Below, one piece after another: positions 24,716-60,423 of a stretch of 64,000 nucleotides of DNA (position 1 is the stretch's first letter; each line of letters starts with the position of its first letter). Origin of the DNA: Garicola koreensis (GTDB lineage Bacteria; Actinomycetota; Actinomycetes; Actinomycetales; Micrococcaceae); NCBI RefSeq assembly GCF_014195445.1, contig NZ_JACIBT010000001.1:496001-560000 (forward strand), given 5' to 3'. The position numbers and the translations under genes are program-made. The notes beneath the pieces are model-generated. The model had not been told where the DNA came from and did no database searches. It was given only the letters and a program-made list of their open reading frames with translations.

Positions 24716-26542
24716 ATGTCTGAGACTGTCAACCTTCCCGAACTCGGTGAATCCGTCACCGAAGGCACTGTCACCCGCTGGCTCGTCGAGGTCGGAGAGG
24801 AGGTCGAGGTCGACCAGCCGCTGCTGGAAATTTCCACCGATAAGGTCGACACCGAAGTTCCCTCCACTGTTGCCGGCGTCGTTGAGGAGCAGCTGGTCGC
24901 TGAGGACGAAGAGATCGAAGTCGGCGCACCCCTGGTGAAGATCGGCGACGGCTCCGGCGCAGGCGGCGGCTCCGAGGATGAAGGCTCAAAGGACGAAGGG
25001 TCAGAAGAAGGCGGCGAGGACGAAGCAGAGTCCGAAGAAGCGCCTGCGGAGTCAGAGTCGGCCGAGTCCTCGGAGTCCACGCAAGAGGCCGCCGAGGAGG
25101 AGGCCCCCACCCCAGCGGCCGGTGAGTCCGGCGGCGGCGAGGCCACCACCGAGGAGGACAGCCCGGCCGAGGACACCTCCGGCGACTCCGAAGAGGTCAC
25201 CCTGCCTGCCCTGGGCGAGTCCGTCACCGAGGGCACCGTGACCCGTTGGCTCGTCGACGTCGGTGACGAGGTGGAGGTCGACCAGCCGCTGCTGGAAGTC
25301 TCCACCGATAAGGTCGACACCGAGGTCCCCTCCCCCGTGGCCGGCACGGTGCAGGAGCTGAAGGTCAGCGAGGACGAGGAAGTCGAAGTCGGTGCCGTGC
25401 TGGCACTTGTGGGCTCCGGCTCCGGCGAATCTGCTCCGAAGTCTGAAGAGCCCACTGAGGAGGCCGCCGAAGTCTCCCAGGAGAAGGAGGAGAAGCCCGA
25501 GCCTGAGCCTGCTGAGGAGCCGAAGCAGGAGCAGAAGCCGCCCAAGGAGGAGCCGAAGCAGGACTCGCAGAAGACCTCCACTCCGGCCCCGGCGAACAGC
25601 TCCTCGGACAGCTCGGCCGAGGGATACGTCACTCCGCTGGTGCGCCGACTGGCCAAGAAGGAAGACGTGGACCTCTCCCAGGTCACAGGGACCGGAGTTG
25701 GCGGACGCATCCGCAAGCAGGACGTGCTGGACGCCGTGGAGTCCAAGAAGAGCTCGGCTGAGGCCGACGGCGGCGAAACAGAGGCAAAGCCGGCGCCTCA
25801 GGTCCAGGTGGACACCACCAAGCGCGGCACCACCGAGAAGGCGCCACGCATCCGCCAGGTCATCGCCCAGCGCATGAAGGAATCCCTGGACGTCTCCGCG
25901 CAGCTGACCCAGGTCCAAGAGGTGGACATGACCCGCGTCGTCAACCTGCGGGCCAAGGCCAAGCAGAGCTTCCAGCAGGCCAACGGTGTGAAGCTGACCT
26001 ACCTGCCGTTCATCGCCACGGCCGTGACGGAGGGCCTGAAGCAGCACCCCAAGCTCAACGCGGAGTACAACCAGGACGAGCAGCAGATCACCTACCACGA
26101 CGCTGAGCACCTGGCCATCGCAGTCGACACCGAGAAGGGGCTGCTGGTACCGGTGGTCAACGACGCCGGAGACCTGTCCATCGCGGGCCTGGCCAAGCGG
26201 ATCTCCGATGTGGGTGAGCGCACCCGCGACGGCAAGATCGGCCCCAACGAACTCTCCGGAGGGACCTTCACCATCACCAACATCGGGTCGGTGGGGGCGC
26301 TGTTCGACACTCCGATCATCAATCAGCCGCAGGTGGGCATCCTGGGCACCGGCATCATCGAGAAGCGGCCCAAAGTGGTCGCCGACGCCGATGGCAATGA
26401 CACCATCGGCATCCGCCACCTGATGTACCTCTCGCTGACCTACGATCACCGGATCGTCGACGGCGCCGACGCCGGCCGTTTCCTCCAGACGCTGAAGGCG
26501 CGCTTGGAGGAGGGGAACTTCGAGGCCCAGCTGGGCCTCTGA
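24716..26542 (+). CDS. sucB: Dihydrolipoamide acyltransferase E2 (2-oxoglutarate dehydrogenase type)
   Basis: A 608-residue E2 component. Two lipoyl domains with the lysine motif [13 protein letters not shown] / [13 protein letters not shown] lie near residues 1-80 and 160-240, separated and followed by long acidic Glu/Ser/Pro linkers. The E3/E1-binding domain is [20 protein letters not shown] (about 302-321). The catalytic acyltransferase domain follows and ends with [17 protein letters not shown], which contains the HxxxDG active site. Two lipoyl domains and an actinobacterial setting fit SucB, although actinobacterial E2 enzymes of this type may serve both pyruvate and 2-oxoglutarate complexes. 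LipB and LipA, encoded about 1 kb downstream, would modify these lysines. The 3' end overlaps a convergent gene by 97 bp. Confidence 0.92.
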
Positions 26543-50211: not shown

Positions 50212-50284
50212 GCCCGAGTAGCTCAGGGGATAGAGCAGCGGCCTTCTAATCCGCTGGTCGGGGGTTCGAATCCCTCCTCGGGCA
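50212..50284 (+). tRNA. tRNA-Arg(UCU)
   Basis: A 73-nt tRNA with a perfect 7-bp acceptor stem GCCCGAG/CTCGGGC (50212-50218 with 50277-50283), discriminator A84, D-arm GCTC...GAGC, anticodon loop CTTCTAA with anticodon TCT at 50245-50247, and T-arm GGGGGTTCGAATCCCTC. CCA is not encoded. Its last 21 bases plus two following bases form one copy of the island's 23-bp direct repeat, so the 3' part of the gene may have been supplied by the integrating element. Confidence 0.96.
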
Positions 50285-50286
50285 CA
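50264..50286 (+). repeat. attL-like direct repeat copy (tRNA-Arg 3' end)
   Basis: A 23-bp sequence starting GTTCGAATCCCTCCTCGG and ending GCACA, perfectly repeated at 52859-52881 in the same orientation. It covers the T-loop, the T-stem 3' half and the acceptor 3' strand, the usual target of tyrosine integrases. Confidence 0.85.
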
Positions 50287-50342
50287 ATAAGATCGTTGAT
50301 ATAGCAGGGATGCAGAGCCGGTAGATCTGAGATTGTCCCCTC

Positions 50343-50742
50343 GATTCCGCTTTCCAAGCGGCTGACCCTGATGGGTTCCAATTTGCGGTGCTGTCATCAT
50401 CGATGTTCATTACCTGGCAAAAGACTGTGGGGACGCCTCAAGTCAGATCTGCGGTTCGGCTCAACTCTGTCGTGGTACACGCTTCCTCTCCCGCCCACCA
50501 GCGATGATCTGCGGGAACGGATCATTACGGCGGGCAAAGGGGTGCTACGGGCTCGCGAGCAACACCCCGAACGTTCGCTCGCCGACCACTACACTCCGCT
50601 CGCCATGGACCCAGCCCTCTTAAAAGCACACGATGCACTGGATGCCGTGGTAGACCGGGCATTCGGTGCGAAGAGCACCTGTAGTTCTGAGAAGGAGCGG
50701 CAAGAGGTCCTGTTCACCCGCTACGCGGAGTTGACTGCATAG
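50343..50742 (+). pseudogene. C-terminal fragment of an MmeI-like type IIL restriction-methyltransferase, frameshifted
   Basis: Two reading frames together give the C-terminal end of MmeI-type enzymes. Frame A (50343 to about 50430) reads ADPDGFQFAVLSSSMFITWQ followed by KTVG. After a frameshift near 50430-50435, frame B reads GRLKSDLRFGSTLSWYTLPL, then ERIITAGKGVLRAREQHPER, SLADHYTPLAMDPALLKAHD, ALDAVVDRAFG and ERQEVLFTRYAELTA. The ending (hDPLxMP-hhKAH-LDxAVD, ERxxxLFxxYxxLT) is a hallmark of this family. The N-terminal nuclease and methyltransferase parts are missing, and a TGA stands in frame at 50328. It cannot encode a working enzyme. Recognition is from memory of the family, without a search. 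Confidence 0.75.
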
Positions 50743-50916
50743 TCCGTCCTCAACGCAGCACGGCAGAATCGTGACGCCGAAATACGGCGCCGCCACCCCG
50801 CCGGCGTGACCATGTATCGCATAGCGGCATGGTTCGGAATCTCGTAGCAGTCCGTCCGCAAAATTGTGAGAACACTGCTGTCAGAAATCACTCCGAAGAC
50901 TGGTTACGAAGGTTAG
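50743..50916 (+). pseudogene. Helix-turn-helix gene remnant with internal stop
   Basis: Continuing in the frame of the MmeI remnant after its TAG, the sequence reads RQNRDAEIRRRHPAGVTMYR, then IAAWFGIS, a TAG, and QSVRKIVRTLLSE. This resembles a resolvase- or DNA-invertase-type helix-turn-helix in which a codon before QSVRKI has become a stop. No start codon with a ribosome site is present. It is a remnant of unknown origin. Confidence 0.45.
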
Positions 50917-50921
50917 AAACC

Positions 50922-51098
50922 ATGCAGACCTCCACTCGGAACCACGGAACGAGCGCCCAGGCCGACCTGGTCGAAGCACTGGAGATCGTCCACGACTACG
51001 CATGAATCGACCGGCTGGTGGTCGTCCTCCACGGCCACCTGTCTCGACCCGAATCCGCGCCTTATGGCAACCTGGACGACCTAGGTGCAAAACCATAA
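50922..51098 (+). pseudogene. Short unidentified remnant
   Basis: An ATG at 50922 opens a 27-codon reading (MQTSTRNHGTSAQADLVEAL and so on) that ends at TGA 51003. The same frame then continues as IDRLVVVLHGHLSRPESAPY to a TAA at 51096. The continuity across one stop suggests a small decayed gene, but I do not recognise it. Confidence 0.3.
51081..51089 (+). promoter_or_regulatory. Shared 9-mer upstream of the first lipoprotein gene
   Basis: CTAGGTGCA, 24 bases (start to end distance) before the ATG at 51113. The same nine bases stand 23 bases before the second lipoprotein gene. TAGGTG could serve as the -10 box, or the 9-mer may be an operator. Confidence 0.4.
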
Positions 51099-51112
51099 AG
51101 GGGGGCTCCACC

Positions 51113-51865
51113 ATGAGTAACCGAAATCTCCGCACTACGCTCGCCGCCGCCGCGCTCGCCGTCGTTGGGATGCTGGCCGCTGGGTGCAGTGCCGAGGATC
51201 CGGGGCCGCAGTCGGAGCCTACTGAGCCGACACAAACGGCTTCCGCAGAAGCCTCCGCTGAGACCGAGACCACGAAAGCTGAGGCCGAATCCTCCGGTGA
51301 GTGGGACAAAGACGGAGACTGGAACGCAGAATGGGATGAGAATAGGCCCGAATCCGCGAAGGCCGGCGACACTTACCATCTGGCAGACGGCACCACCTAC
51401 ACCCACGCTGAGATGAAGGCCAAGCGGGAGGATCCAGAGCCGACCTTTGACTCCACGCCTGTTGAAGATATAGCTGAGGATGACTTACCGATCACAGAAG
51501 GCTCGTTCTCTGCTGAAAAGCACATGGAAGTTCCGGAGCCGGTGACCCCAAACACTTGCACCGACCCGGAGGCAATAGAGGCGAACGAAGGCCACGAGCC
51601 TGCCGGGTGGCCCGCCGGGGTCGCCGAAGGCGAGGAACTGCCCGACCCCGAGTGCCACCCGGACTTCATCGAGCTCCCTACGTGGGAGCACTACCACAGC
51701 ACCTGCATGGATCCGATTGCTCACGGGACAGCACTGCCGCCGGAGCACCCACAGAGCACTGCCTCCGAGGAAGAATACCGGTCCTTTGCGTGGGAAGCCT
51801 CCCAGATGCGCAGCTGGTGGACACCCCCCGCTGAGGGTGAGGACTGCTACGGCCACGAGGGGTGA
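51113..51865 (+). CDS. Island-encoded lipoprotein with four extracellular cysteines (paralogue 1)
   Basis: A 250-residue predicted lipoprotein. The signal peptide has NRNLRTT, a hydrophobic core and the lipobox LAAGC (Cys near residue 23). A Ser/Thr/Glu-rich linker follows, then an acidic body with TYHLADGTTYTHAEMKAK. Four cysteines in the C-terminal half are spaced 31, 16 and 46 residues apart (NTCTD, DPECHPD, YHSTCMDP, GEDCYG) and could form two disulfides outside the cell. WEHYHSTC and WWTPPAEGEDCYG match HVHYLC and VWTPEQ...QCFG of the downstream lipoprotein. I know of no characterised relative. AAGGGGGG precedes the ATG at 51113. A terminator separates it from the second gene. The function is unknown. 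Confidence 0.75.
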   Translation: MSNRNLRTTLAAAALAVVGMLAAGCSAEDPGPQSEPTEPTQTASAEASAETETTKAEAESSGEWDKDGDWNAEWDENRPESAKAGDTYHLADGTTYTHAEMKAKREDPEPTFDSTPVEDIAEDDLPITEGSFSAEKHMEVPEPVTPNTCTDPEAIEANEGHEPAGWPAGVAEGEELPDPECHPDFIELPTWEHYHSTCMDPIAHGTALPPEHPQSTASEEEYRSFAWEASQMRSWWTPPAEGEDCYGHEG

Positions 51866-51882
51866 TAGGGCGCAGGACCAGT

Positions 51883-51914
51883 GCGAGGACTGGGGTCTCG
51901 ACCCTAGTCCTCGC
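51883..51914 (+). terminator. Terminator hairpin between the two lipoprotein genes
   Basis: A 14-bp stem (51883-51896 with 51901-51914, one G-T pair) closes a 4-nt loop, CTCG, 18 bp after the first lipoprotein stop. It implies that the two paralogues are separately transcribed. Confidence 0.75.
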
Positions 51915-51933
51915 CTCATGGGTACCTACACAT

Positions 51934-51942
51934 CTAGGTGCA
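51934..51942 (+). promoter_or_regulatory. Shared 9-mer upstream of the second lipoprotein gene
   Basis: CTAGGTGCA, identical to 51081-51089 and at nearly the same distance from the start codon, after the terminator. Confidence 0.4.
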
Positions 51943-51964
51943 CCTGCGCGACAAGGAGATCACC

Positions 51965-52690
51965 ATGAAGAAAACCGACCGCACCACCTTCGCCGCTGCG
52001 CTCGCTCTCGTCGGCCTGTTGGCCGCTGGGTGCGCTGACGTCGAGCCATCGTCGGCACCGCCGTCGGAGTCCTCCGAGCCTGCCGAGACCGAAGCCGCGG
52101 AGCCTGAAGAATGGGAGCCGCACGACGATCTCTTCGAGCTATGGATCGACGACGATACCGGACCCGCCGCAGCGTATGAAGCCGTGCTCGATATGGGATA
52201 CTCACCGGACGGCAACGGCATCATCGAGCTGCCCGGAGCCGCCGATTGGGCGACGGCCCCGAATAGTGAACTCTGGGATGTCGATGTGTTCTACGACCTC
52301 GACGTCCTCGTGGAGGAACGCGCCCCGGCGACCCCGGATCGAGAGATGAGCGCAGTCGACTGCGTCACGGAATGGGAAGACGTCGATGCCCTTGCACTAC
52401 AGTCGGCCCCTGAGGGTAATGCGACGTATGGTCCAGGGGCTGACGCCGGACCGACTTGCTTCGATGCGCCCGGCGGTGCTCCCACTGCCCCAGCGGTGCG
52501 TCATGTTCACTACCTCTGCCAGGCCGCGAACACGACGGCGCGAGCACTGGTGTCGCACATAGACGAGGAGGCGGCGGTGTGGACCCCGGAGCAGACCACC
52601 GGCAAGGGGCGCCAGTGCTTCGGGTTCGGCGGTGATGAAGTTGCGGTTCATCAGGTCGAGGTCGTGAACCACCAGGTAGGGCGCAAATAA
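51965..52690 (+). CDS. Island-encoded lipoprotein with four extracellular cysteines (paralogue 2)
   Basis: A 241-residue predicted lipoprotein beginning MKKTDRTTFAAALALVGLLA with lipobox LAAGC. A short Ser/Glu-rich linker leads to an acidic domain with WEPHDDLFELWIDDDTGPAA and LDMGYSPDGNGIIELPGAAD. Four cysteines (VDCVTE, PTCFD, HYLCQ, RQCFGF) have spacings 31, 19 and 32; the first equals that of the upstream lipoprotein. The C-terminal HVHYLC and VWTP...CFG parts match it as well. AAGGAG precedes the ATG at 51965. With the upstream gene it forms the only intact cargo of the island. No function can be assigned. Confidence 0.75.
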   Translation: MKKTDRTTFAAALALVGLLAAGCADVEPSSAPPSESSEPAETEAAEPEEWEPHDDLFELWIDDDTGPAAAYEAVLDMGYSPDGNGIIELPGAADWATAPNSELWDVDVFYDLDVLVEERAPATPDREMSAVDCVTEWEDVDALALQSAPEGNATYGPGADAGPTCFDAPGGAPTAPAVRHVHYLCQAANTTARALVSHIDEEAAVWTPEQTTGKGRQCFGFGGDEVAVHQVEVVNHQVGRK

Positions 52691-52858
52691 GTCCGACCAT
52701 TAGTGCGATGACCAGGGCCTCGCCATTCAGGGGACAACATGCCGCCTGAGACCACCAATACCGCCGTAAACGTAAGGTCTATACATGGGCCATGAATCGG
52801 CCTGCATCCCTTTATTCGTGCGACATCGAGGGGTGTTAGACTCGATCCGGCCCGGAGA
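52691..52858 (+). other. Right end of the island without a gene
   Basis: A 168-bp stretch between the second lipoprotein stop and the right repeat. No credible reading frame is present. It includes CTATAC near 52772-52777 and a TAGACT box at 52837-52842. Confidence 0.5.
52837..52842 (+). promoter_or_regulatory. -10-like box at the island right end
   Basis: TAGACT, 16 bases before the right repeat copy and about 70 bases before the DUF2079 start. It could drive the chromosomal gene from inside the island, replacing read-through from the tRNA promoter. Confidence 0.4.
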
Positions 52859-52881
52859 GTTCGAATCCCTCCTCGGGCACA
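52859..52881 (+). repeat. attR-like direct repeat copy
   Basis: Perfect 23-bp copy of 50264-50286. Bases on either side differ from those flanking the tRNA copy, so the repeat is exactly bounded, as expected for an integration core. Confidence 0.85.
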
Positions 52882-52910: not shown

Positions 52911-54383
52911 TTGCCCCTGCGTCATAAGGTCCAGCTGGGACTGGTCATGCTTGCCGGCGGGCTGCTGGCTCTGATCCACTCGCTGCTGCGCTTCCGCAAC
53001 TTCGAGGCCAAAGGCTATGACCTGGGCATCTTCGATCAGGCGGTGCGCCAGTATGCGCTGTTCAAACCGCCGATCGTGCCGATCAAGGGCGAGGACTTCC
53101 ACCTGCTCGGTGATCATTTTCATCCGGTCATAGCCCTGTTCGCACCGCTCTACTGGATCTGGGATGACCCGCGGATGCTCAACATCGGCATGATCGGACT
53201 GCTGGTCTCCACCGCGATCCCGGTCTACCTGGTGGTTCGGTCCTGGTTCAGCCATCGCCCGGCTCTGCTGAGTGCGGCCGCACTGCTGCTGTGGTGGCCG
53301 TTCCAGGCCATCGTCAACTGGGACTTTCACGAGGTCGCCTTCGGCGTGCCCCTGATCGCCTGGATCATCTGGGCCATCGAACGACGTCGGATGTGGCTGG
53401 CAGTGGCCCTGGCTGCCGCAATGCTGAGCGTGCGCGAAGATATGGGGGCCACCGTGCTGGCGGTGGCCATGGTGCTGGCAGTGCGCAGGCAGTGGTGGCC
53501 CGCGGTGGTGACGGCGCTGCTGGGGCTTGGCGGCCTATGGTTCGCCATCGGCGTGGTGATCCCCCACTTCTCAGCAGGCGCAGACTTCCAGTACTGGGAG
53601 TACACCGCTCTGGGGGCCTCGGCCAGTGCGGCCATCGTCACCATCTTCACCCAACCGTGGAACGCCGTCGTCGCACTGTTCGACCACCCGCTGAAAGTCG
53701 GGCTGTGGCTGCTGCACCTGGTGCCGCTGTGGCTGGCACCGCTGCTCTCACCCTACGTGCTGCTGGCCGGGCCCATCGTGCTGTCCAGGCTGTGGAACGA
53801 CCGGCTCAATGTGTGGGCGCCGGTGTACCAGTACGACGCCATCATCGCCCCGGTGCTGCTGCTGGCCGCTATGGATGTGGTGCGTCGGCTGACCCACAGC
53901 GGACTGGTGGTGCCGCGGATTTCCCTGAAGCGGCCGCTGACCCGGCGTCTGGCGACCGCGCTTCCGGCCACGGTGCTCATCGCGGGCGCCATCGGGTCGA
54001 TGCTCTTCCCCCAGGTGTTCCCCTATCAGCGCACGCTGACCGCGGCGAACTGGTCGATGAGCGAACGAGCTGAGGCCCACGCCCGAGCGGTGGAGCAGAT
54101 CCCCGACGACGTGTGCGTCGAGGCCGCCGACACCGCAGTGCCGCACCTGGTGGACCGAACGTATGTGGGCCTGAACGGAACCACCGCCGAGGAGGACCTG
54201 CAGTGGCTGATCATCGATGAGCAGGTCGAGGAGCTCGGCGGCAACACTCCGCTGACCCCGGATGAGGCGTTCGCGCGCGCCGAGAGGCTCGGCTTTGACA
54301 CGGTCACCGAGGACGACCACGGGCTCTGGGTGCTGCACCGTGACATTGAGCAGGCGGACAAGTGCGCGGAATACCTGCGCTGA
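52911..54383 (+). CDS. DUF2079 polytopic membrane protein
   Basis: A 490-residue membrane protein of the DUF2079 family, with about ten spans. The family start is LRFRNFEAKGYDLGIFDQAV, followed by GEDFHLLGDHFHPVIALFAP and INWDFHEVAF-like residues (VNWDFHEVAFGVPLIAW). The fold is thought to resemble GT-C glycosyltransferases, but no reaction is known. The TTG at 52911 is the preferred start, with GAAGGAAG five bases upstream. The longer reading from 52785 crosses the right repeat of the island and would be an artefact of insertion. A MshA-like gene follows. Confidence 0.85.
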   Translation: MPLRHKVQLGLVMLAGGLLALIHSLLRFRNFEAKGYDLGIFDQAVRQYALFKPPIVPIKGEDFHLLGDHFHPVIALFAPLYWIWDDPRMLNIGMIGLLVSTAIPVYLVVRSWFSHRPALLSAAALLLWWPFQAIVNWDFHEVAFGVPLIAWIIWAIERRRMWLAVALAAAMLSVREDMGATVLAVAMVLAVRRQWWPAVVTALLGLGGLWFAIGVVIPHFSAGADFQYWEYTALGASASAAIVTIFTQPWNAVVALFDHPLKVGLWLLHLVPLWLAPLLSPYVLLAGPIVLSRLWNDRLNVWAPVYQYDAIIAPVLLLAAMDVVRRLTHSGLVVPRISLKRPLTRRLATALPATVLIAGAIGSMLFPQVFPYQRTLTAANWSMSERAEAHARAVEQIPDDVCVEAADTAVPHLVDRTYVGLNGTTAEEDLQWLIIDEQVEELGGNTPLTPDEAFARAERLGFDTVTEDDHGLWVLHRDIEQADKCAEYLR

Positions 54384-58740: not shown

Positions 58741-60423
58741 TCAGCCGCGGGTGAGTCGGCGGTGGGTCACACGGCTGGGGCGAGCCGCATCGGCGCCGAG
58801 GCGCTCCACCTTGTTCTTCTCATAGGACTCGAAGTTGCCCTCGAACCAGTACCACCGCCCGGGCTCATCCTCGGTGCCCTCCCAGGCCAGAATATGGGTG
58901 GCCACTCGGTCGAGGAACCACCGGTCGTGGGAGATGACCACGGCACAGCCGGGGAACTCCAGCAGCGCGTTCTCCAGTGAACCCAGGGTCTCTACGTCCA
59001 GGTCGTTGGTGGGCTCATCGAGCAGCAGCAGGTTTCCGCCCTGTTTCAGGGTCAGCGCAAGGTTGAGCCGGTTTCGCTCACCGCCGGAGAGCACCCCGGC
59101 CTTCTTCTGCTGGTCCGGGCCCTTGAACCCGAACTGGGAGACATAGGCGCGGGAGGGAATCTCGACCTTGCCGACCTGGATGAAGTCCAAACCGTCGGAG
59201 ACCACCTCCCACAAACTCTTGTCCGGGTCGATGCCGGCACGAGACTGGTCAACGTGGGAGATCTTCACCGAGTCACCGATGGTCAGCTTGCCGTCGTCGA
59301 GGTCCTCCATGCCCACGATACTGTTGAACAGGGTGGTCTTGCCCACTCCGTTGGGGCCGATCACACCGACGATGCCGTTGCGCGGCAGCGAGAACGAAAG
59401 CCCGTCGACGAGCTGACGGTCACCGAAGCCCTTCTGCAGGTTCTCGGCCTCGATGACCTGGGTGCCCAGGCGGGGACCGGGCGGAATCTGGATCTCTTCG
59501 AAGTCCAGCTTCTTCGTCCTCTCTGCCTCATCGGCCATCTCCTCGTAGCGGGCCAGACGAGCCTTGGACTTCGACTGACGGCCCTTGGCATTGGAACGGA
59601 CCCACTCCAGCTCCTCGGCCAGCCGCTTGGCGAGCTTGGCGTCCTTCTTGCCCTGGACCTCCAGGCGAGCGCGCTTCTTCTCCAGGTAGGTCGAGTAGTT
59701 GCCCTCGTAGGGGTAGAGCCGGCCGCGGTCGACCTCGCAGATCCATTCGGCCACATGGTCCAAGAAGTAGCGGTCGTGGGTGACGGCCAGCACAGCGCCC
59801 TCATAGGAGGCCAGGTGCTGCTCGAGCCAGAGTACCGATTCGGCGTCGAGGTGGTTGGTGGGCTCATCGAGCAGCAGCAGATCCGGCTTGGACAGCAGCA
59901 GCTTGCACAGTGCCACGCGGCGGCGCTCACCACCGGAGAGGTGGGTGACCGGCTCATCGCCTGGGGGGCAGCGCAGCGCATCCATGGCCTGCTCCAGCTG
60001 TGAGTCGATGTCCCAGGCATTGGCGGCATCGATCTCTGCCTGAAGCGTGCCCATCTCCTCCATCAGTGCCTCGAAGTCGGCATCCGGGCTGGCCATCTCC
60101 TCGCTGATCTCGTTGAAGCGGACCACCTTCTGGTAGATCTCGCCCACGCCCTCCTGGACGTTGCCCAGCACCGTCTTCTCCTCGTTCAGCGGAGGTTCCT
60201 GCAGCAGGATCCCTACTGAGTAGCCTGCGCTGAGCCGGGCCTCACCGTTGGAAGGCTCGTCGAGGCCGGCCATGATCTTCAGGATCGTAGACTTGCCCGC
60301 GCCGTTGGGGCCGAGCACGCCAATTTTGGCACCCGGGTAGAAGGACATCGTGACGTCATCGAGGATGACTTTGTCGCCCACCTTTTTGCGGGCTCTGACC
60401 ATGTTGTAAATGAACTCTGCCAT
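58741..60423 (-). CDS. ettA: ABC-F ATPase EttA (energy-dependent translational throttle)
   Basis: A 560-residue soluble twin-ABC protein that acts in the ribosomal E site. Walker A motifs are LGPNGAGKSTILKIMAGLDE and IGPNGVGKTTLFNSIVGMED. Signatures are VTHLSGGERRRVALCKLLLS and VLSGGERNRLNLALTLKQGG, each followed by LLLDEPTNHLDAES or LLLDEPTNDLDVET. The arm/linker between the domains and the short C-terminus match EttA. The ATG at 60423 follows a TAGGCT box by seven bases. Confidence 0.95.
   Translation of the reverse strand: MAEFIYNMVRARKKVGDKVILDDVTMSFYPGAKIGVLGPNGAGKSTILKIMAGLDEPSNGEARLSAGYSVGILLQEPPLNEEKTVLGNVQEGVGEIYQKVVRFNEISEEMASPDADFEALMEEMGTLQAEIDAANAWDIDSQLEQAMDALRCPPGDEPVTHLSGGERRRVALCKLLLSKPDLLLLDEPTNHLDAESVLWLEQHLASYEGAVLAVTHDRYFLDHVAEWICEVDRGRLYPYEGNYSTYLEKKRARLEVQGKKDAKLAKRLAEELEWVRSNAKGRQSKSKARLARYEEMADEAERTKKLDFEEIQIPPGPRLGTQVIEAENLQKGFGDRQLVDGLSFSLPRNGIVGVIGPNGVGKTTLFNSIVGMEDLDDGKLTIGDSVKISHVDQSRAGIDPDKSLWEVVSDGLDFIQVGKVEIPSRAYVSQFGFKGPDQQKKAGVLSGGERNRLNLALTLKQGGNLLLLDEPTNDLDVETLGSLENALLEFPGCAVVISHDRWFLDRVATHILAWEGTEDEPGRWYWFEGNFESYEKNKVERLGADAARPSRVTHRRLTRG

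Follow-up and report, generated by a model that had tools for sequence, protein, structure and literature searches.

A 2.6-kb segment at tRNA-Arg(UCU) of Garicola koreensis is probably a decayed tRNA-integrated element with both attachment cores retained

Results

Organization of the segment

The window analysed here is a 64,000-nucleotide stretch of the Garicola koreensis genome (contig NZ_JACIBT010000001.1). Within it, a 2.6-kb segment bounded by two exact copies of a 23-bp sequence separates a tRNA-Arg(UCU) gene from a gene for a DUF2079 membrane protein. The features of the locus are listed below.

50212..50285, + strand: tRNA-Arg(UCU) gene, the integration target (ARAGORN; Rfam RF00005, 65.7 bits)
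50264..50286, + strand: left 23-bp copy, the tRNA-side att core; exact direct repeat at the 3' end of the tRNA
50287..50342, no strand assigned: left end of the element, as far as the presumed deletion junction; similarity to MmeI begins at ~50343
50343..50742, + strand: 3' remnant of an MmeI (type IIL restriction-modification) gene in two reading frames, starting at about residue 786 of the 936 residues of the homologue in genome G029
50743..51110, + strand: remnant DNA whose short frames are interrupted; at its end it resembles the DNA that precedes a further lipoprotein gene in this genome
51113..51865, + strand: lipoprotein gene A, an intact frame of 250 aa; by our reading it has a signal sequence and a lipobox-like Cys
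51965..52690, + strand: lipoprotein gene B, intact, 241 aa; its leader resembles that of A, its body is unrelated to A
52731..52858, + strand: right end of the element, common to the island at the same tRNA in genome G009 (70% identity without the att core, 73% with it)
52859..52881, + strand: right 23-bp copy, the distal att core and displaced tRNA 3' fragment; exact direct repeat
52911..54383, + strand: DUF2079 membrane protein gene (PF09852, 3.2e-58), which adjoins the tRNA in 18 island-free relatives

The left copy comprises the final 22 nt of the tRNA and one further base, and 29 nt separate the end of the right copy from the TTG start codon of the DUF2079 gene. The closest other match to the 23-mer on either strand of the window has 7 mismatches, which excludes a chance origin of the second copy. 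No integrase or transfer gene was recognised in 50287-52858, and the six PF00589 matches of the genome (79.9% complete) all lie outside the segment, the nearest ~184 kb away. Thus, the sequence-only reading of this locus was accurate in describing a same-orientation repeat at the tRNA 3' end and before the DUF2079 gene, a content of remnants and two lipoprotein genes, and the absence of an integrase.

The open reading frame at 50371-50742 matches PF20467 (2.5e-18), and tblastn divides the MmeI stub into two pieces in differing frames. Of the full set (N, helicase spacer, methyltransferase, TRD and C), only the MmeI_C domain and the extreme end of the TRD are left; judged from its sequence, the gene is truncated and frameshifted. 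The stub is 73% identical in DNA to the MmeI gene of G029 over 360 nt and accounts for all plasmid matches to the island (11 records). In the DNA that follows, 51041-51187 shows 75% DNA identity to contig C14 of the same genome. The first reading-frame piece of this remnant has no plasmid match, and its three pieces gave no convincing match among the fetched loci.

No Pfam, NCBIfam or PHROGs family was matched by lipoproteins A and B above the cut-off or with clear value, and the weak family matches fall mostly on the signal sequences and low-complexity regions. Their AlphaFold2 models are poor, with a mean pLDDT of 56.9 for A and 36.4 for B. Neither protein has a match in 50,697 phage records or in viral contigs, and every relative found for lipoprotein A is in Nesterenkonia. 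A role in superinfection exclusion would be a guess.

The right end has no plasmid match, and the whole island has no phage match. Two candidate signals in the segment were considered and are not claimed. A 14-bp imperfect inverted repeat joins the two ends (50337-50350 and 52820-52833), as integrase arm sites might, and by eye is missing from the ends of the G009 island. A TAGACT motif, considered as part of a promoter in the right end, precedes the right core by 16 nt in the window and by 15 nt in G009; a sigma-70 scan of the segment gave no promoter-like site.

Empty and occupied sites in the genus

Thirty genomes of the genus were examined at this site. The tRNA lies 0-184 nt before the DUF2079 gene, with a single 23-bp copy, in 18 of them, and just before a glycosyltransferase gene, the next gene along, in seven (G001, G002, G006, G014, G019, G026 and G029). 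The site is therefore empty in 25 genomes and occupied in two, the present genome (G000) and G009; it could not be judged in three (G005, G007 and G025). Neither lipoprotein gene is found at tRNA-Arg(UCU) in any other of the 30. The empty sites show that the segment is an insertion, which bears out the earlier interpretation of the locus as an insertion into a tRNA 3' end, the tyrosine integrase being presumed. The single-copy junction that this interpretation predicted is present, and the relatives do not in general have two repeat copies together with the two lipoprotein genes.

The island of G009 is an independent one of 3.3 kb at the same tRNA, with different cargo; its three called proteins include no integrase. 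Comparison of the two islands showed that ~130 bp at their right ends are alike (70-73%), whereas their left ends have no significant similarity and the right core of G009 has drifted. G006 has similar flanks, yet its site is empty. When the right end was searched in 295 genomes of the family, including 23 of the 30 genus genomes, long matches were obtained in G000 and G009 only, and all other matches were short and fell largely on the att core. A follow-up with a core-free query covered nine genomes: the seven remaining genus genomes, G000, and G009 as the positive control. It failed to recover G009, and its negatives weigh little. No full-length parent with the right end of the window island was found in the family genomes searched, with limited sensitivity.

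Integrase-bearing relatives

G029 (L092) carries a 15.4-kb element at tRNA-Lys(UUU), with a repeat that is exact over the 46 nt tested. Its integrase adjoins the tRNA, and a regulator, a complete MmeI of five domains and one lipoprotein-like gene (by our reading; no Pfam family) are present. The eight proteins scanned, a part of its gene set, have no structural family match. The element has in common with the window island the MmeI gene, the repeats of a tRNA 3' end and a lipoprotein-like gene, but it occupies another tRNA and retains the integrase, the regulator and the complete MmeI.

A larger integrase-bearing island at the same tRNA, which the sequence-only reading had named as possible support, was found in G318 (L156), of another genus of the family. 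This 12.5-kb element targets the same tRNA species and is likewise flanked by directly repeated copies of the tRNA 3' end. However, its exact repeat is 38 bp long, it carries an integrase on the tRNA side, a regulator and an AAA protein, and it shows no significant similarity to the window island in its ends or in MmeI. Among the best 30 loci of the G318 integrase family, taken one per genome, the top three (G318, G060 and G297) have a tRNA-Arg(UCU) gene within ~1.1 kb of the integrase. The repeat starts in the T-loop in the window and near the anticodon loop in G318; thus, the G318 integrase need not be of the type that inserted the window island. In both the G029 and the G318 elements the integrase is on the tRNA side, the side of the presumed deletion in the window. 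The left end of the window island (50287..50342) is not significantly similar to the element of G029, G009 or G318, and no intact element at tRNA-Arg(UCU) was found to combine MmeI with both lipoproteins.

Two further relatives lie in a different setting. In G017, a relative of lipoprotein A and an MmeI gene are located between a gene for a GH18-domain protein and an integrase; in G023, a relative of lipoprotein B is located between genes with GH18 and LysM/amidase domains and an integrase. We read the GH18 and LysM/amidase genes as phage tail and lysis genes. The MmeI relatives are thus found on the G029 element, with no recognised phage gene among the eight scanned proteins, and in a possibly phage-like region of G017.

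Lipoprotein genes beside tRNAs

A less ordinary aspect of the island is that the families of lipoproteins A and B often lie just downstream of tRNAs. With the window left out, 25 stretches contain a relative of A or B, and in 16 of them the gene follows a tRNA 3' end at a distance of no more than 2 kb. Ten of the 16, from ten genus genomes, share tRNA-Leu(GAG) next to relatives of lipoprotein A and were taken as one orthologous place; two more of the 16 represent one duplicated contig. Two of the other stretches likewise count as one, being duplicates of each other. After this grouping, six of 14 independent loci have a tRNA no more than 2 kb upstream, compared with ~3.4% expected. The binomial value of 3.7e-6 is only a guide, as both the distance limit of 2 kb and the grouping were set post hoc. 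At one locus (L098) the lipoprotein gene is at a contig end, where a tRNA could be missed.

A second tRNA copy within 5 kb is clear in four of the 16 tRNA-linked stretches, marginal in one and absent in 11. In G012, a pair of tRNA-Leu(UAG) ends (45 of 46 tested nt) encloses a relative of lipoprotein A in 1.6 kb; in G026, an imperfect pair of tRNA-Leu(GAG) ends encloses another in 3.6 kb. No integrase was recognised in the island of either species, and the two islands are 74-82% alike over their common parts despite the different tRNAs. In G023, one of the four clear cases, the lipoprotein gene lies outside the pair. In G020, two contigs share an identical 2.4-kb stretch that contains a relative of lipoprotein A.

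Discussion

Origin of the segment

Taken together, these comparisons make it probable that the segment is a tRNA-integrated element that has decayed but retains its two att cores, a remnant resembling a cis-mobilizable element. Its parent may have been a phage, an integrative plasmid-like element or an integrative element of some other kind. A mobile element, presumably carrying a tyrosine integrase, would have inserted at the junction of tRNA-Arg(UCU) and the DUF2079 gene with the tRNA 3' end as its target, so that the tRNA was restored at one border and the 23-bp fragment came to lie at the other. A later internal deletion would have removed the stretch from just inside the tRNA-side end to about residue 786 of the MmeI gene. 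The MmeI remnant and the layout of the intact relatives suggest that this deleted stretch probably included the integrase and accessory genes. The two att cores, the MmeI stub and the two lipoprotein genes would then be left, with self-excision impossible. Between the alternatives of a deletion derivative and a satellite mobilised in trans, both raised from the sequence at the outset, the former is favoured because the segment opens with a truncated and frameshifted MmeI gene that has a whole relative on the integrase-bearing element of G029. Since the two cores are identical, excision could still occur if an integrase of the right specificity enters the cell; trans-mobilisation of the island is possible but unsupported.

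A prophage parent, with the lipoproteins as lysogenic-conversion or superinfection-exclusion genes and MmeI as defence cargo, is a narrower version of this explanation, and its chances overlap with it; taken by itself it seems rather unlikely. The neighbourhoods in G017 and G023 speak for it, but the window island contains no phage structural gene, the phage and viral collections hold no match to either lipoprotein, and none of the eight scanned proteins of the G029 element matches a structural family. That the second 23-bp copy arose by chance or by recombinational duplication of the tRNA end, next to lipoprotein genes that are ancestral neighbours, is very improbable. The recurrence of lipoprotein-A relatives at tRNA-Leu(GAG) would fit old chromosomal residents. 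However, neither gene occurs at tRNA-Arg(UCU) in the other 29 genus genomes examined, where empty junctions predominate, the 23-mer has no close match elsewhere in the window, and in a second species this tRNA also bears an island, whose right end is similar.

The segment could also be a functional satellite, a small lipoprotein unit with conserved ends that the integrases of other elements move in trans between tRNA genes. The identical cores of the window, the similar right end with other cargo and no called integrase in G009, the G012 and G026 pairs, the enrichment of lipoprotein loci near tRNAs and the duplicated stretch of G020 would all suit such a unit. Nevertheless, we consider it improbable: the MmeI stub resembles a random truncation rather than a designed end, G009 differs in its drifted right core and its left end, and most lipoprotein-linked tRNAs lack a second copy, with the G023 gene outside its pair. 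It is equally doubtful that genus-restricted, tiny integrase-free lipoprotein cassettes hop between Nesterenkonia tRNA genes by means of others' recombinases, with the window, G012 tRNA-Leu(UAG) and G026 tRNA-Leu(GAG) islands as members. The segment looks like a common kind of genomic remnant, a larger mobile element minus its integration machinery.

Relation to known systems

A cis-mobilizable element (CIME) is a decayed ICE or IME, by the definition that PMC5704250 gives with reference to Pavlovic et al. 2004. The window island resembles a CIME so defined in having attL and attR at a tRNA and in keeping its cargo with the integration and transfer genes gone. The founding cases of CIMEs are streptococcal and larger, whereas the present segment has 2.6 kb and a Nesterenkonia-like host. 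No second element is in tandem at the window site, and neither cis-mobilisation nor accretion is seen there. Islander, as described in PMC4383910, maps tRNA-integrated genomic islands and requires an integrase gene inside them. Like the islands so mapped, the window island has its ends marked by a regenerated tRNA and a displaced fragment, but it would be filtered out under that description for want of an integrase.

The locus provides a clean example of a tRNA-integrated element decaying to a stub with cargo and both attachment cores; the genus also offers empty sites and a further occupied one, and the family intact relatives. If the association of the lipoprotein genes with tRNAs exceeds what decay accounts for, Nesterenkonia would be convenient for asking whether integrase-free units move in trans.

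Occupied and empty tRNA-Arg(UCU) sites

The window comes from a 2.25-Mb draft genome (27 contigs, 79.9% complete). The 3' end of its tRNA-Arg(UCU) gene recurs downstream as a 23-mer, which has at least 7 mismatches at every other place in the window on both strands. The features of the locus are as follows.

50212-50285: tRNA-Arg(UCU) gene
next to the tRNA, about 56 bp: island left end, without significant match
after the left end: 3' end of an MmeI (type IIL restriction-modification) gene; PF20467, 2.5e-18
between the MmeI stub and lipoprotein A, about 370 bp: remnant DNA
51113-51865: lipoprotein A, 250 aa, intact
51965-52690: lipoprotein B, 241 aa, intact
52859-52881: exact second copy of the last 22 nucleotides of the tRNA gene plus one base
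52911-54383, + strand: DUF2079 gene

DUF2079 is present in all 30 genus genomes, and tRNA-Arg(UCU) precedes it at an empty site in 18 of them, where the gap between the tRNA and the homologous TTG start is 0 nt in 13 genomes and 24-184 nt in 5. In 7 further genomes (G001, G002, G006, G014, G019, G026 and G029) the tRNA lies directly before the glycosyltransferase gene (PF00534, 1.2e-34; presumably mshA-like) that follows DUF2079 in the window; the conserved glycosyltransferase motif LHTSPL is found 33-157 nt past the tRNA. Three of the 30 genomes stand outside the occupied and empty counts: only 147 bp of contig lie beyond the tRNA in G005, and G007 and G025 have no close tRNA-Arg(UCU) match and a partial DUF2079 match at a contig end or on a small contig. 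The sequence-only reading had taken the repeats as the footprint of an insertion into the tRNA 3' end and had named relatives with an empty site as support. Two occupied sites (the window genome and G009) among many empty ones are of this kind; the observation is borne out and the reading is correct in its main branch. Together, the empty sites and the repeats establish insertion at the tRNA 3' end.

At 13 of the 18 empty sites (stretches L020-L030, L033 and L041) the conserved DUF2079 TTG start abuts the encoded tRNA, and the glycosyltransferase gene of G014 and of G001 likewise has an in-frame ATG or GTG 0 nt from the tRNA. Judged from these junctions, processing of the tRNA 3' end would yield an mRNA with almost no leader. 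Two more sites in the window (24806-25323 and 59005-59880) have exact direct repeats of at least 20 bp no more than 5 kb apart.

Contents of the window island and of the G009 island

Aligned with the G029 homologue (936 aa), the MmeI stub starts near residue 786, and it uses two frames; thus, the gene is truncated and frameshifted. The leader DNAs of A and B are alike (57 nt at 77%), as is a motif upstream of them (33 nt at 82%), and their bodies are unrelated. The GC content is about 0.58-0.62 in the left half of the island, compared with 0.65-0.71 in most of the flanking DNA.

In G009, 3.25 kb separate the tRNA from a degenerate copy of its 3' end, which scores 14 (shuffled sequences reach no more than 12) and lies directly before the glycosyltransferase gene. 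In G006 the tRNA immediately adjoins flanking sequence closely similar to that of G009. Three proteins are called in the G009 island: a methyltransferase (UPF0020), an AraC/GyrI-like regulator and a small, secreted-looking protein without a Pfam family. The right end resembles that of the window island (70% identity over the 131 aligned bp that lead up to the copy, 73% including it), whereas the cargo differs, so related elements entered tRNA-Arg(UCU) twice. No integrase is seen in either island.

Intact relatives and mechanism

G029 carries a 15.4-kb element in tRNA-Lys(UUU), with a repeat exact across the 46 nt tested, an integrase and HTH regulator adjoining the tRNA, a complete MmeI of five domains and a lipoprotein-like gene. 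G318, from another genus of the family, carries a 12.5-kb element in tRNA-Arg(UCU) with an exact 38-bp repeat, an integrase 75 bp from the tRNA, an HTH regulator, a small HTH protein and an AAA protein. Among 30 fetched loci of the G318 integrase family (one per genome), tRNA-Arg(UCU) lies within about 1.1 kb in the top three, which are those of G318 itself, G060 and G297; the tRNA is another one in 14 loci, and the fetched stretch contains no tRNA in 13. The window repeat starts in the T-loop, and that of G318 near the anticodon loop; because the starts differ, an integrase of another type than G318's may have acted at the window tRNA. Work by Williams in 2002 is said to tie the repeat start to the integrase subfamily.

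A tyrosine integrase would have carried out the insertion, and a single internal deletion would then have taken the integrase and most of MmeI. In both the G029 and the G318 elements the integrase is on the tRNA side, the side of the window's deletion. The lipoprotein genes may have been kept as useful, or simply not lost yet.

CIMEs are described in PMC5704250 as elements that have lost integration and transfer genes and kept attL and attR. The window island has both features, although its ancestor may be an ICE/IME or a phage. Islander (PMC4383910) maps tRNA islands containing an integrase; since one is required inside, integrase-free islands such as the window's fall outside its scope. A word search of the Nesterenkonia comparative-genomics paper PMC8875376 gave no mention of the island, nor did a limited rather than full check of literature on Nesterenkonia genomic islands and tRNAs. 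The island is a fresh example of an already known kind.

The cargo of the G318 element (L156, G318:C38:8000-23000) includes a 711-aa GDSL lipase/esterase-domain protein. Elsewhere in the window's own genome, three tyrosine recombinase genes lie in a row on one strand (G000:C3:96141-99403, L135), with a fourth integrase match near; similar trios occur in G001 and G006. We take the trio to resemble a recombinase-in-trio (RIT) element.

Lipoprotein genes at tRNA sites

The lipoprotein genes at tRNA sites are a side question of modest interest. Counting the window's genome, A relatives occur in 16 and B relatives in 5 of the 30 genus genomes; none of the matches outside the window is at tRNA-Arg(UCU). 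A search of 84,980 species genomes with two peptide patterns of A confirmed 12 loci, every one of them in a Nesterenkonia record. With the window left out, a lipoprotein gene lies just downstream of a tRNA in 16 of 25 stretches, and in 6 of 14 once places that are shared or duplicated are merged; from the 46-52 tRNAs per genome (four genomes), 3.2-3.9% of the DNA is expected that close to a tRNA. The association could exceed routine decay. However, A relatives also occupy ordinary chromosomal places (in G026, for instance, one adjoins a class II tRNA synthetase gene), and the link to tRNAs may thus reflect only where new genes arrive.

Over 5 kb in 16 lipoprotein-linked tRNA stretches, the window among them, a second tRNA-end copy is clear in four (window, G012, G026 and G023), marginal in one (G006) and absent in 11; in G023 the lipoprotein gene is outside the pair. 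The G012 and G026 islands have common DNA (74-82% identical), yet lie at different tRNA-Leu genes. Three further proteins were scanned in G026: one is a rhodanese, another an AsnC-type regulator, and the last has no family.

Within one genome, lipoprotein genes with unrelated bodies have promoter-side DNA or a signal sequence in common, as in A and B of the window (51041-51201, 51895-52047) and the A-type L098 and B-type L105 of G023, and also at L096 9594-9745, suggesting that these genes are mosaics with exchanged bodies.

In family genomes, tRNA-Leu(CAA) or its 3' fragments border 2-4-kb segments (L149, L153, L155; L150, L151), and some genomes have several same-strand fragment copies. In L149, L153 and L155 a ribbon-helix-helix and Fic/DOC gene pair is at the segment end, adjoining the fragment, and the gene calls include no recognised integrase.

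In G020 the contigs C1 (2.9 Mb) and C2 (103 kb) share, at 100% identity, a 2,428-bp stretch with an A relative (L094 7084-9511, L095 7774-10201), indicating recent movement or copying. In the window's own genome, contigs C14 (L096) and C19 (L097) are 99.95% identical over 12.7 kb and have an A relative beside tRNA-Lys(UUU); the duplication may be genuine or may stem from the assembly.
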